Source of the DNA: Gammaproteobacteria bacterium
GTDB lineage: Bacteria > Pseudomonadota > Gammaproteobacteria > Ga0077536
DNA: 32,217 nucleotides
Direction of reading: 5' to 3'
NCBI GenBank assembly: GCA_030830685.1
Contig: JAURMM010000061.1
Coordinates: 1 to 32,217, forward strand
In this document: positions 16,513 to 29,740 of the stretch, piece by piece
Numbering within the stretch: the first letter of the stretch is position 1
How the letters are laid out: the number at the start of each line of letters is the position of its first letter
Position numbers and translations under genes: made by a program
The notes under the pieces: generated by a model
Database searches by the model: none
The model's input: the letters and a program-made list of their open reading frames with translations, nothing else
What the model was told of the DNA's origin: nothing

Positions 16513-17901
16513 ATGCATATCCATATCGCGGGGATCTGCGGCACCTTCATGGCCGGGGTGGCGCAGCTTGCACGGGAACTCGGTCATCAGGTGAGCGGGT
16601 CAGACAGTAATGTCTATCCGCCGATGAGTGACTTCCTGGAGGCGGCAGGGATTTCCATCCGCCAAGGCTGGCACCCGGACCACCTTGCCGACAAACCGGA
16701 TCTCGTCGTGATCGGCAACGCCCTCAGTCGGGGCAATCCCCTTGTAGAAGCCGTGCTGGATGCGCACATCCCCTATACCTCAGGTCCCGCCTGGCTCGCA
16801 CAGAATGTGTTGCAAACCCGACACGTGCTGGCGGTTGCCGGTACCCACGGCAAGACCACCACCAGCAGCATGCTGGCTCATCTGCTGGAGGCCGGAGGCC
16901 TGTGCCCCGGTTTTCTGATTGGCGGGATTCCCGGAAACTTCGGTGTGCCTGCACGCCTCGGCACTGGCCGGTACTTCGTCATCGAGGCCGATGAATACGA
17001 TACCGCGTTCTTCGACAAGCGCTCGAAGTTCGTGCACTACCGGCCGGATACGCTGGTGATCAACAACCTCGAATTCGACCATGCGGATATCTTTCCGGAC
17101 CTCGCGGCCATTCAGACCCAGTTTCATCATCTCGTGCGGACCGTGCCGCGCAGGGGTCGGATTCTGTGGAACGCGGACGAGGTGAACATCCCCCCGGTTC
17201 TCGCGCGAGGCTTGTGGAGTGAGTCGCAGAGCTTCGGCGCCGCGAAGGAGGCGGACTGGCGTCTGCTCGAGGAGGTGGACCGGCCTGAGCGCCGAGTGCG
17301 CACGACGGACAGGCTGTCGGCCGGGGAATGGAGGATTGCGTTGCCGGAGGCCGCGCCGGGGAGACATAACGCATTGAACGCAATCGCCGCCATCGCAGCG
17401 GCCTGCCATGCGGGGATGCGTCCGGAGCAGGCGTGCACGGCGTTGGCGGAGTTCCGCAATACCAGGAGACGCCTCGAGATTGTGGGGGAGCTCGAAGGGA
17501 TCACGGTCTACGACGATTTCGCCCACCACCCGACCGCGGTCGCAGCCACGCTTGCCGCCCTGCGTGAACGCGTCGGCAAAGCGCCGATCGTGGCTGTGCT
17601 GGAACCGCGCTCCAACACCATGCGCATGGGGGTGCACCGTGACTCTCTCGGTCCCTCGCTGGCAGCGGCTGATCAGGCGCTGCTGTTGATGCCCGCCGAC
17701 CTCGGGTGGGACACAACCCCCTTGCGACACTCGCTGCTCGGACGCGGCGAGCTTCATGCCAGTCCCGATACCCTGCTGGAAGCGCTGCTCGCACGCTGTG
17801 CCCCGGGTTGCCACGTGCTCATCATGAGCAACGGTGATTTCGGCGGCCTCCACCACCGCCTCCTGCGGCTGCTGGCCGACAGGGCAGCGGGGGGGCCATG
17901 A
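16513..17901 (+). CDS. mpl: UDP-N-acetylmuramate:tripeptide ligase Mpl (murein recycling)
   Basis: Mpl attaches recycled L-Ala-gamma-D-Glu-meso-DAP to UDP-MurNAc, returning murein peptide to cell-wall synthesis. The 462-residue protein has the three Mur-ligase domains. The N-terminal Rossmann start is HIHIAGICGTFM. The P-loop is GTHGKTTTS at 110-118. VIEADEYDTAFFDKRSKF, LEFDHADIFPD and YDDFAHHPTAV follow. The motif IAGICGTFMAG with DEYDTAFFDKRSKF distinguishes Mpl from MurC. Its stop overlaps the next start (ATGA at 17898), which indicates coupling to the Lon-N-domain gene. Confidence 0.96.
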   Translation: MHIHIAGICGTFMAGVAQLARELGHQVSGSDSNVYPPMSDFLEAAGISIRQGWHPDHLADKPDLVVIGNALSRGNPLVEAVLDAHIPYTSGPAWLAQNVLQTRHVLAVAGTHGKTTTSSMLAHLLEAGGLCPGFLIGGIPGNFGVPARLGTGRYFVIEADEYDTAFFDKRSKFVHYRPDTLVINNLEFDHADIFPDLAAIQTQFHHLVRTVPRRGRILWNADEVNIPPVLARGLWSESQSFGAAKEADWRLLEEVDRPERRVRTTDRLSAGEWRIALPEAAPGRHNALNAIAAIAAACHAGMRPEQACTALAEFRNTRRRLEIVGELEGITVYDDFAHHPTAVAATLAALRERVGKAPIVAVLEPRSNTMRMGVHRDSLGPSLAAADQALLLMPADLGWDTTPLRHSLLGRGELHASPDTLLEALLARCAPGCHVLIMSNGDFGGLHHRLLRLLADRAAGGP

Positions 17902-22351: not shown

Positions 22352-23336
22352 GCAACGCACGCCGTTGCGGATTGCCGTCACGCTTGGTGAACCAGCGGGC
22401 ATCGGTCCGGATCTCGCCCTGGGACTCAGGTCCCCCGATCCAGACGTAGAGCTGGTCTTCATCGCAGATTCGGAGCTCATGGCAGAACGCGCCGCTGTGC
22501 TTGGTGTATCCGGTGCGTTGGCGACCTACACGCCAGATGCTCACGTCGCGCGCAGCCTGCTTGCGATCCATGGTTGCCACAACCGGGGCGCCGGCACGGT
22601 AGATTCTGGCAATGCGCGCTATGTGCTCGACACACTCGACAGAGCGATCGCGGGCTGCCTTTCCGGGGAGTTTGCGGCGCTGGTAACAGGGCCGGTGCAG
22701 AAAAGCGCCATCAATGCTGCGGGCTACACCTTCACTGGGCATACCGAGTATCTCGCGCTGCATTCCGGCGGCGTGACACCAGTGATGATGCTGGTTTCGG
22801 GCAAGCTCCGGGTGGCGCTTGCCACCACCCACCTGCCGCTCGCAGCGGTTCCAAAGACAATTTCCCAACCTCTTCTCACACATGTGATTCGTCAGGTCCA
22901 CCACGCACTGGTGGCAGATTACGGCATCGCGCGGCCATGCATCGGTATCTGCGGCCTGAATCCACATGCCGGAGAGGGTGGGTATCTGGGTCGGGAGGAC
23001 ATTGAGGTCGTTGCGCCCGCGATTGAGGTTCTGCGCGCCGAAGGCATGCGGCTCGAAGGCCCCCTACCGGCAGACACTGCCTTCACACCGCGGCTGAGGG
23101 AACGATATGACGCCTACGTCAGCATGTTTCACGACCAGGGTCTGCCGGTACTCAAGGCCTTAGGTTTTGGAGAGGCGGTCAACGTGACGTTGGGCCTGCC
23201 TTTCATCCGCACTTCCGTGGATCATGGTACCGCGCTCGATCTGGCCGGCACCGGACACGCCCAGCCCGGCAGCTTCGAGGCCGCCCTGCGGCTGGCGGTG
23301 GAAATGGCGCGCAATCGATACACCCGGTCAGCGTGA
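22317..23336 (+). CDS. pdxA: 4-hydroxythreonine-4-phosphate dehydrogenase PdxA
   Basis: PdxA oxidises 4-phosphohydroxy-L-threonine in pyridoxal phosphate synthesis. From ATG 22317 the protein is 339 residues (E. coli 329). Conserved blocks are RIAVTLGEPAGIGPDLAL, FAALVTGPVQKSAIN, FTGHTEYLA, CGLNPHAGEGGYLG, PLPADTAF, MFHDQGLPVLK and TLGLPFIRTSVDHGTALDLAG, which include the metal-binding histidines. GTG 22338 is an alternative start and gives 332 residues. Either way the gene overlaps surA by 14-35 nt. Its stop overlaps the GTG of rsmA (GTGA), so the operon is translationally coupled. Confidence 0.96.
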   Translation: MRLTSKSVSKTEQRTPLRIAVTLGEPAGIGPDLALGLRSPDPDVELVFIADSELMAERAAVLGVSGALATYTPDAHVARSLLAIHGCHNRGAGTVDSGNARYVLDTLDRAIAGCLSGEFAALVTGPVQKSAINAAGYTFTGHTEYLALHSGGVTPVMMLVSGKLRVALATTHLPLAAVPKTISQPLLTHVIRQVHHALVADYGIARPCIGICGLNPHAGEGGYLGREDIEVVAPAIEVLRAEGMRLEGPLPADTAFTPRLRERYDAYVSMFHDQGLPVLKALGFGEAVNVTLGLPFIRTSVDHGTALDLAGTGHAQPGSFEAALRLAVEMARNRYTRSA

Positions 23337-24121
23337 GTCTGTTCCCCGCAGATCCCGGGGCCGGCGCGCGCAAACGTTTCGGCCAGCATTTTCTGATCGA
23401 TGCGCAAGTCATCGAGGATATCGTCCGGTGCATTGGCCCAGCCCCGGGCGAAACCATCGTTGAAATAGGCCCCGGTCGCGGCGCGTTGACCACCGCGTTG
23501 CTGCAGCGAGGAGCGCATGTCGAAGCCGTCGAAATCGACCGCGACCTGGTGCGGGAGCTACGGCGTCACTTCGGCGCCGAGTCGCGCCTGGAGGTGCACG
23601 AGGGCGATGCGCTCAATTTTGACTTCCTCAAGCTCGCCGCGCCCGGCGCACGGCTGCGCATCGTGGGCAACCTGCCCTACAACATCTCCACCCCCTTGAT
23701 GCTCCGTCTTCTGAAGCTTGGTCACGGCATCAAGGACATGTGCTTCATGTTGCAGCAGGAGGTGGCCGACCGTCTGGTGGCCCACCCTGGCACCGCGGAT
23801 TACGGCCGACTGGCGGTCATGACCCAGGCTTTTTGCGAGGCTGCCGTGGTGCTCGAGGTCCCGCCTACTGCATTTGCTCCACCGCCCCGGGTGGAGTCCT
23901 CGGTGGTCATGTTGCGACCCTTGGCCGAGCCGCCTTGCAGCTTCGAGATTCTCGAAAAGATCGTGGCAGAGGCGTTCCTGCACCGGCGCAAGATGTTACG
24001 CCAGACCCTGGCCCGACGCTTCGCACCGGAAACGCTCAGTGAACTCAGGATCGCCCTTACCGACCGGCCGGAAAACGTTTCCGTCCAGCAATTCATCGGA
24101 CTGGCCACACTCGGCCAGTGA
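23333..24121 (+). CDS. rsmA: 16S rRNA (adenine1518/1519-N6)-dimethyltransferase RsmA/KsgA
   Basis: RsmA dimethylates the two adjacent adenosines of the 3' terminal helix of 16S rRNA, a late step in 30S assembly. At 262 residues it has the family length. SAM-binding motif I is EIGPGRGALT (about 44-53). The catalytic motif IV is N113-L-P-Y116. KRFGQHFLID (14-23) and the C-terminal FLHRRKMLRQTL are also conserved. GTG 23333 overlaps the pdxA stop by 4 nt. In E. coli apaG-apaH follow directly; here they lie 4.3 kb downstream. Confidence 0.97.
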   Translation: MSLFPADPGAGARKRFGQHFLIDAQVIEDIVRCIGPAPGETIVEIGPGRGALTTALLQRGAHVEAVEIDRDLVRELRRHFGAESRLEVHEGDALNFDFLKLAAPGARLRIVGNLPYNISTPLMLRLLKLGHGIKDMCFMLQQEVADRLVAHPGTADYGRLAVMTQAFCEAAVVLEVPPTAFAPPPRVESSVVMLRPLAEPPCSFEILEKIVAEAFLHRRKMLRQTLARRFAPETLSELRIALTDRPENVSVQQFIGLATLGQ

Positions 24122-24140
24122 CTCTTGCACACCTTGGTGA

Positions 24141-24163
24141 TTGTCCACAGATTCTGTGGATAA
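24141..24163. promoter_or_regulatory. Inverted pair of DnaA boxes
   Basis: TTGTCCACA (24141-24149, + strand) faces TGTGGATAA (24155-24163), which is the exact consensus TTATCCACA on the minus strand, with 5 nt between them. The first box differs from consensus only at position 3. The two also create a 17-nt palindrome, TCCACAGA-T-TCTGTGGA (24144-24160), so a hairpin function is an alternative. Confidence 0.5.
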
Positions 24164-24347
24164 CTCTGTTGAACACCGTCGGGTAAAACGCGTATCTCCT
24201 TGTCTCACGGGGCCTCGGTCTGGATCGGCGAAATATTCACCAATCTCTATCTTTAGTTATTTCGAACAATAAGTTAGAAGCTTTCTTGAAAGCCCTTGAT
24301 GTACTCAGGAAGGTAACCTTGGAAAATTATCGCAGCGCAGTATCAGA

Positions 24348-24356
24348 TGTGCATAA
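24348..24356 (-). promoter_or_regulatory. Third DnaA-box match
   Basis: TGTGCATAA on the + strand reads TTATGCACA on the minus strand, a full match to TTATNCACA. It lies about 185 nt from the inverted pair, on the other side of the AT-rich segment, in the same orientation as the second box of that pair. Confidence 0.4.
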
Positions 24357-24422
24357 ACACCCGTAAAAGTCTGTCCAAGTCAACGCTTTAGACACGGCTC
24401 AGATACTCTTTCGTGCAACAAC

Positions 24423-25277
24423 TCAGCGCGCACGGAGTGCGGTGAGCACCGGGGAGGTCTCGGGCTCCAGACCGTGCCAGAGTGCGAAGGCTGCGGCCGC
24501 CTGTTCGACCAGCATGCCCATGCCATCGCGCAGCCTGTTGCAGCTGGCCAAGGTCTGACAGGCAGCCAGGAAAGGCGTCAAAGTCGACGTATAGAACATG
24601 TCGTAGCAATGGGTCTGGGGGCTCAGGAGTGCCGGAGGGAAGACCGGCGCTTCGCCGCTCAAGCCGGCCGAGGTTGCATTGATGATGAGATCGGCCGGTA
24701 CCGTCGCCCCCTCCGGCTGCAGCGTGCTGATTGTGCCCAAGGCCTGGAAGCGCTCAATCAGGGCTTCCGCTCGCGCCTGGCTGCGGTTGAGCAGCACGAT
24801 CGCGGTGACACCCGCCGCAAACAACGGAGGGATCACCCCCGCAGCGGCCCCCCCGGCACCCAGGATGGCCAGACGCAGCCCTTTCAGAGACAAGCCCCAG
24901 TTGAGGGTCAGGTCCCGAACCAGTCCAGTTCCATCCGTGTTGTCAGCGCACAGTGCGCCTTGGGCATTCCACCACAGTGTGTTCGAGGCCCCGGTGGCCT
25001 GAACCGCCGGAGACACCTGAGCGGCAAGCGCTGCAGCCTCTTCCTTCAGCGGGACCGTGACGTTGACGCCTCTGCATCCAAGTTCCTGCAGCTGTTCCAG
25101 CGTATGCGGGAGCTGGCCAGGCCTTGCTTCAACCCGCTCATACTGCAGGGCAAGACCGAACTGTTCGGCGAAGGCCCGATGGATGAAGGGCGAACGGCTG
25201 TGACTGACCGGGAAACCCGTGACGGCGCAGAGCACCGCACCGGGAACCCGGAGAGGGATGAGGGAGACGTCGGACAT
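24423..25277 (-). CDS. aroE: Shikimate dehydrogenase
   Basis: AroE reduces 3-dehydroshikimate to shikimate with NADPH in aromatic amino acid synthesis. The 284-residue protein has the substrate-binding VTGFPVSHSRSPFIH near residues 19-33, catalytic K78 in NVTVPLKEE, D115 in ADNTDGTGL, the Rossmann loop ILGAGGAAAG and the NATSAGLSG and DGMGMLVEQAA motifs. It is transcribed towards rsmA and is divergent from the CDGSH gene. A TACAAT (25315-25310, minus) is a possible -10. Confidence 0.96.
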   Translation of the reverse strand: MSDVSLIPLRVPGAVLCAVTGFPVSHSRSPFIHRAFAEQFGLALQYERVEARPGQLPHTLEQLQELGCRGVNVTVPLKEEAAALAAQVSPAVQATGASNTLWWNAQGALCADNTDGTGLVRDLTLNWGLSLKGLRLAILGAGGAAAGVIPPLFAAGVTAIVLLNRSQARAEALIERFQALGTISTLQPEGATVPADLIINATSAGLSGEAPVFPPALLSPQTHCYDMFYTSTLTPFLAACQTLASCNRLRDGMGMLVEQAAAAFALWHGLEPETSPVLTALRAR

Positions 25278-28903: not shown

Positions 28904-29740
28904 ATGCCGACCTATGCCATAGGGGACGTCCAAGGCTGTCTCACCAGTCTGGAAGCCTTGCTCGAGGAAATCGACTTCGACCTCACGAGCGATCGGCTCT
29001 GGTTCACCGGAGATCTGGTCAACCGCGGCCCCGACAATCTTGGCGTGTTGCGTCTGGTGCGGGGCTTGGGCGAACGCGCGGTAACCGTGCTCGGCAATCA
29101 TGATCTGCATCTTTTGGCGCTGCGCTTCTGTCCGGAGCAGAAACCTCGGCGCGGAGATACGCTCAACGACGTTCTGGAGGCCCCTGATTGTGATGCGCTC
29201 CTCTCGTGGCTGAGGCAGTGCCCGCTGTTCCATCATGATCAGGCACTCGGCTACAGCCTGGTGCATGCCGGGGTGCCGGGCGAGTGGAACATCGGCGAAG
29301 CTCTGGCACACGCGGGTGAAGTGGAGGCGGTATTGCGCGCAAATCATCCCGAAAATTTCCTGTGCGCGATGTATGGCAACAAGCCGGCACGCTGGCGAGC
29401 CTCATTGACGGGAGAGAAGCGCCTTCGCTACATCACCAACGCCTTCACACGCATGCGCTACTGCCAACCGGATGGTGAGCTGGACTTTGAAACCAAGGAA
29501 GGTCTGGATGCAGCACCAGGCGATCTCTTGCCCTGGTTCATGCAGCCCGCACGGGCGAGCCGTGGAGCGCGCATCGTGTTCGGCCACTGGTCTACCTTGC
29601 GACTTGAGGCTCCACAGGAGGCGGCATTCGGCGTCCACCCCCTGGATACGGGCGCAGTCTGGGGAGGCACGCTGTCAGCGCTATGCCTGGAAGATGGTCG
29701 TCGGTTCAGCGTACCTGGACTCGCCGGGCGCGTATTCTGA
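28904..29740 (+). CDS. apaH: Symmetrical diadenosine tetraphosphatase ApaH
   Basis: ApaH splits Ap4A into two ADP, limiting this stress nucleotide, and removes Np4 caps from RNA in E. coli. The 278-residue protein has the metallophosphatase motifs YAIGDVQGC (4-12), FTGDLVNRGPDN, TVLGNHDLHLLAL and the downstream VHAG and FGHWS metal ligands. ATG 28904 follows apaG by 39 nt. Its end is 10 nt from the convergent folA. Confidence 0.97.
   Translation: MPTYAIGDVQGCLTSLEALLEEIDFDLTSDRLWFTGDLVNRGPDNLGVLRLVRGLGERAVTVLGNHDLHLLALRFCPEQKPRRGDTLNDVLEAPDCDALLSWLRQCPLFHHDQALGYSLVHAGVPGEWNIGEALAHAGEVEAVLRANHPENFLCAMYGNKPARWRASLTGEKRLRYITNAFTRMRYCQPDGELDFETKEGLDAAPGDLLPWFMQPARASRGARIVFGHWSTLRLEAPQEAAFGVHPLDTGAVWGGTLSALCLEDGRRFSVPGLAGRVF

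Follow-up and report, generated by a model that had tools for sequence, protein, structure and literature searches.

We found a composite DnaA-box element in the spacer between the convergent genes rsmA and aroE of a gammaproteobacterial contig (JAURMM010000061.1, assembly GCA_030830685.1; the window, i.e., the whole stretch of 32,217 nucleotides analysed here), which we predict, with a probability of about 0.78, to be a DnaA-reactivating sequence (DARS) that converts ADP-DnaA to ATP-DnaA, assisted by the cofactors IHF and Fis. Its architecture, its class-wide conservation and its homology with DARS are established at the level of sequence, from which the recharging activity is predicted. The element occupies positions 24141-24356, and its core reads, in order, TTGTCCACA-GATTC-TGTGGATAA-CTC-TGTTGAACA, i.e., a box I opposed to boxes II and III, which is followed by Fis-like and IHF-like sites and a distal inverted box IV (Table 1). 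An initial annotation had proposed an undescribed DnaA-binding locus of the datA or DARS kind in this spacer; that proposal is supported, and the spacing of the core together with a held-out profile singles out DARS. The three boxes that it named were placed correctly to within a base, and the last of them, a "third match", is box IV, a part of the conserved layout. Box III, the Fis-like and IHF-like sites and the fixed distance of the distal box had escaped it.

The non-coding gap between rsmA (23333-24121, plus strand) and aroE (24423-25277, minus strand), both identified with Pfam, is 301 nt long, and the element has the intergenic, non-coding position expected of a DARS. The guanine-plus-cytosine (GC) content of the spacer is 0.449, against 0.616 for the whole window, and the A+T-rich block noted earlier, with 49 of 70 positions being A or T, was reproduced as the sole 70-mer among 32,147 in the window to reach that count. 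The convergent location is explained if the element is a DNA site rather than a promoter or a transcript.

By analogy with the E. coli work, boxes I and II would be occupied by two ADP-DnaA molecules in head-to-head contact, and box III by a third. IHF, helped by Fis, would sharply bend the A+T-rich flank, folding the flank and box IV back towards the core; the strained DnaA oligomer would let go of its ADP, and apo-DnaA would depart and rebind ATP. In the window's family, the rsmA-aroE site would act beside a second element near rppH.

A held-out profile and a conserved flank

The homology with DARS is carried by a profile from which the window's genus and E. coli were both excluded. From 102 eligible rows, the 11 from Legionella were excluded because their flanks looked unlike the remaining rows, and the resulting 91-row alignment (A1) gave a profile of 152 positions (R1). 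The scores of R1 are 61.3 bits (E 3.3e-18) for the window, 34.4 bits (8.3e-10) for DARS1 and 20.3 bits (2.1e-5) for DARS2, and each match spans almost all of the model (positions 3-144 for DARS1), so that the homology with the two E. coli sites goes further than single boxes. In 200 kb of E. coli, made up of four 50-kb stretches chosen to contain DARS1, DARS2, datA and oriC, the top four matches of R1 were, in order, DARS1, DARS2, a partial match beside the glyVXY tRNA genes (17675-17754 of stretch L299; 19.5 bits, model positions 18-99), which we take to be datA, and oriC, a weak and partial match. A profile of the flank alone found the window's flank significant (E 8.3e-5), the only one among four test sequences that included the reversed window.

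The flank was further analysed in 118 sites, which reduce to 110 distinct ones; two of these are from E. coli, and the other 108 were used for the flank counts, which, like those for box IV, include the window's genus. The IHF consensus (at most 1 mismatch, one orientation) falls at +115 to +127 in 64/108 sites (shuffled mean 3.3, maximum 7), and the Fis consensus (at most 3 mismatches) at +84 to +98 in 68 of them (shuffled mean 9.5, maximum 15). The shorter Fis consensus as printed in PMC4245941 is found exactly at +84 to +88 in 45/108, against 0.34 expected. An exact DnaA box in the orientation of box IV lies at +200 to +214 in 50 of the 137 sites with 320 bases downstream, while everywhere else beyond +40 the same sites have 19 such matches; the box stands at +205 to +210, in the same orientation, in 14 of the 14 rsmA-aroE copies examined. 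The IHF and Fis flank, a feature of the DARS2 type, is kept in position across the family, with both motifs degenerate in the window and in an order unlike that of DARS2.

The initial annotation had also called for checks of box conservation, box density and the skew origin, all of which were made. The boxes are conserved in relatives by nucleotide search, by a paired-box pattern and by R1. A 431-base query (the spacer with its edges) run against 40 genomes recovered the full stretch only in its own assembly and in one genome of the same genus (69% identity); in 13 further places it recovered only 25-38 bases at the box pair, and in one genome only the rsmA end. The paired-box pattern (at most 3 mismatches) occurs in 75 of the 96 related genomes, against none of 96 for the reversed control, and for this reason we regard the box pair as beyond chance; two TTWTNCACA matches window-wide are ordinary (18 of 100 shuffles). 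The whole assembly has 38 TTWTNCACA matches (28 for a reversed control), i.e., about 1 per 81 kb, and two of these fall within 202 nt at the spacer, a local density far above that of the genome. The origin indicated by skew lies elsewhere in two single-contig relatives (see below).

Parts, spread and genomic neighbors

Table 1. Features of the rsmA-aroE element in window coordinates; offsets are from box I
Feature	Position	Strand	Remarks
DnaA box I, TTGTCCACA	24141..24149	+	One mismatch to TTWTNCACA; opposed to boxes II and III; box I of DARS1 and DARS2 equally spaced
5-nt spacer GATTC between boxes I and II	24150-24154
DnaA box II	24155..24163	-	TGTGGATAA on plus, TTATCCACA on minus; nearly invariant across the 91-row alignment
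Weak DnaA box III	24167..24175	-	TGTTGAACA on plus; 3 nt past box II; TGT conserved in the alignment
Fis-like site, GGCGAAATATTCACC	24227..24241	.	+86; degenerate, 3 mismatches; position kept in the family
A+T-rich block	24231..24300	.	Overlaps the Fis-like site, contains the IHF-like site
IHF-like site, GAACAATAAGTTA	24264..24276	+	+123; 2 mismatches; family peak +118 to +124
Distal inverted DnaA box IV, TTATGCACA (on minus)	24348..24356	-	+207; 184 nt beyond the box pair
Match of held-out profile R1	24140..24285	+	61.3 bits

At E of at most 0.01, R1 matches 87/96 relatives, mostly two or three times each; in family f1, two or more matches are present in 28 of 36 genomes. When 150 genomes were drawn evenly from the phylum, 106 of them matched at E of at most 1e-4. 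At least 36 genomes of a family outside the window's class (f80) match as well, with a best E of 8.4e-17 over model positions 4-142, and an exact scan of a public collection returned at least 117 stretches with the core, mostly labelled as gamma- or betaproteobacterial. Copy number varies at the edges of this spread: f80 genomes such as G200, G132 and G136 have full-length matches, with up to nine copies in one genome among the matches listed, and G076, from the window's own class, has 11 among those listed, several of them core-only, against the usual two or three. Sites keep the same neighbors across genera, and a reading of the element as a mobile repeat was set aside.

The usual pair in the window's family consists of the rsmA-aroE site and a site near rppH; rsmA sites (most with aroE) and rppH sites co-occur in G002, G004, G010, G011, G012, G013, G018, G020 and G024. 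Using RppH, MutH, UvrB and BioD from the E. coli annotation as neighbor queries, we found the element next to rppH in many f1 genomes and next to uvrB in one genome (G202, locus L294), where it lies upstream of uvrB in the same direction as in DARS1. In the f1 loci L192, L199, L203 and L207, rppH and the element are separated by the gene of a small conserved protein that contains a stretch like SPGDMTVEER. Other sites lie at priA (often with hemE) or xseA. In beta-type genomes (L073-L152, e.g., L073 at 4771 and L080 at 2755), the element adjoins priA-hemE or lies between xseA and an ExbD/LpxK operon, the names PriA, HemE, XseA, ExbD and LpxK having been assigned by eye to frames of L073, L080 and L088. 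On these by-eye names, its neighbors are linked to replication or repair, and in these genomes it may also serve as a promoter under DnaA control. The Legionella genomes (L075, L095, L096, L099, L101, L103, L108, L120, L128, L145 and L152) have the exact core, some of them at multiple sites, with no obvious Fis/IHF flank; these sites possibly represent a different use of the same core.

Taken further, these distributions suggest, at what we judge to be a little short of even odds, that a four-part DARS (opposed core, Fis site, IHF site and inverted distal box) is ancestral. It would occur about twice per genome across most Gammaproteobacteria (the beta lineages included) and in one or more additional classes of the phylum, and would have kept its layout while moving among rsmA-aroE, rppH, priA, xseA and uvrB. 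E. coli DARS1 and DARS2 would then be derived and eroded versions, and DnaA recharging at paired sites would be general in proteobacteria.

Alternatives and points against the prediction

The window's own genome (264 contigs, 3,086,169 bases, an incomplete assembly) encodes Fis, which is 55% identical to E. coli Fis over 86 residues, and IHF beta (over the cut-off). Several observations weigh against a DARS function. Box I of the window contains a G (TTGTCCACA), box III has two mismatches to the DnaA-box consensus, and neither the Fis-like nor the IHF-like site fits its consensus well; the copy in G002, from the same genus, comes closer, with 1 mismatch in each, against the window's 3 and 2. 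The flanks of the E. coli DARS are not significant with the flank-only profile (E 2.4 and 3.7). R1 finds one copy only in the incomplete assembly, in which Hda, over the cut-off in 11 of 12 genomes, was likewise not found. The order of sites in DARS2 is core-IHF-Fis (core-IBS-FBS, where IBS and FBS are the IHF- and Fis-binding sites; an exact Fis consensus lies at +145), against core-Fis-IHF here. Finally, rppH is directed at the core in most of the f1 genomes checked and away from it in E. coli, and because of this difference, the positional kinship with DARS2 is loose and only suggestive.

Among the alternatives, a site that titrates DnaA or controls transcription, whose boxes soak up DnaA or regulate the neighbors without nucleotide exchange, is unlikely. 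It would suit those relatives in which the element directly precedes priA or xseA and might control a promoter, and the preference of DnaA for closely spaced box pairs in E. coli, reported from chromatin immunoprecipitation sequencing in an excerpt of PMC11317965. In the window and many relatives, however, the element sits in a convergent gap that calls for no promoter, and simple titration requires neither an opposed pair with spacers fixed at 5 nt and 3 nt nor Fis and IHF sites and a distal box at fixed distances.

A datA-like site, promoting ATP hydrolysis on DnaA with IHF between DnaA boxes, is more doubtful still, and we consider it very improbable. The partial R1 match at the place taken as datA is in keeping with it, but R1 covers DARS1 and DARS2 almost fully and that place only in part, and the opposed box pair is the hallmark of DARS. 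The IHF-like site does lie between the core and the distal DnaA box, as it does in datA (datA layout as given in an excerpt of PMC5742627).

That the spacer is a chromosomal oriC displaced from dnaA is hardly credible. DnaA boxes with an A+T-rich segment, and the weak R1 match of E. coli oriC, would fit an origin; against this, relatives have two or three copies, the flanking genes converge on the site, and the genome's own dnaA lies on another contig (C260), next to a frame that resembles rpmH by eye, and has two boxes of its own immediately upstream, where R1 has no match. The GC skew of the window is flat and uninformative on the origin. In the single-contig relatives, the sites are at least 165 kb from the estimated skew switch (sampling step 150-170 kb): in G069 (3.447 Mb), a switch near 595 kb compares with sites at 828 kb and 3.045 Mb, and in G054 (2.956 Mb), a switch near 1.425 Mb compares with sites at 1.261 and 2.509 Mb. 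G150 was left out because its skew was too irregular. By this sampled skew, the sites of G069 and G054 lie between oriC and terC, the location expected of DARS. We reject the origin on copy number, the skew of these two genomes and the separate location of dnaA.

An RNA hairpin or terminator for rsmA or aroE, which the near-perfect palindrome of the box pair had suggested to the initial annotation as the simple alternative for rsmA mRNA, is rejected as scarcely plausible: compensatory changes are seen in none of the 10 stem pairs across the 91 sequences, two of the pairs are broken in 43/91 and 41/91, the loop would be 1-3 nt with no T run, and no Rfam match reaches the gathering score.

Relationship to known DARS and datA

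DARS are a known type of element, and their wider occurrence is already on record: excerpts of earlier publications describe DARS-like sequences conserved in many proteobacteria (PMC10380432), DARS in beta- or gammaproteobacteria proximal to E. coli (PMC5742627) and in E. coli-proximal species (PMC8682772), and Vibrio cholerae copies whose loci are those of E. coli (PMC6090056). The rsmA-aroE locus, the core-Fis-IHF-box order and the occurrence in a second class find no mention in the DARS literature surveyed, which consists of excerpts and does not cover the founding description of 2009; the locus, the order and the observed spread look like a new variant of DARS. With R1, sequence suffices to recognise DARS-type elements in organisms distant from E. 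coli. The conserved layout of Fis site, IHF site and distal box predicts which parts are functional, and the pattern of two copies per genome makes the generality of DnaA recharging testable in cultured relatives.

With datA, the element shares the character of a non-coding DnaA-box cluster with IHF; the match of R1 to the presumed datA is only partial, ranks below DARS1 and DARS2, and lacks full-length similarity. The effect of E. coli datA on DnaA is opposite to that of DARS (PMC4585315, excerpt).

The closest counterparts are in E. coli MG1655: DARS1, in the bioD-uvrB spacer at 17.5 min, reads TTATCCACT-ATTCC-TGTGGATAA-CCA-TGTGTATTA, and DARS2, in the rppH-mutH spacer at 64 min, reads TTATTCACC-TTTTC-TGTGGATAG-AGT-TGTGAAGAA. 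The 5-nt and 3-nt box spacers and the three-box core with an opposed box I are common to the window, DARS1 and DARS2; excerpts of PMC5742627 describe the identical box spacing of DARS1 and DARS2, with box I opposed to II and III, and name the head-to-head contact of DnaA on boxes I and II as the prominent DARS feature. DARS1 differs from the window element in its locus (bioD-uvrB against rsmA-aroE) and in having no exact TTWTNCACA box at the distance of box IV, and its flank bears only a weak resemblance to Fis and IHF sites.

DARS2, which in E. coli requires IHF and Fis at set distances (PMC4245941, excerpt), has its IHF site at +111 (about +120 here), with the orientation shared, and a DnaA box at +211 (about +207 here), whose orientation is opposite to that in the window element. 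A further likeness is positional, in that sister elements of the window's family lie near rppH. Just beyond DARS2 itself, at +327 from its core (29463-29587 of E. coli stretch L301), R1 has a second, weaker match (15.0 bits, model positions 16-142), which is perhaps a decayed tandem copy of DARS2.
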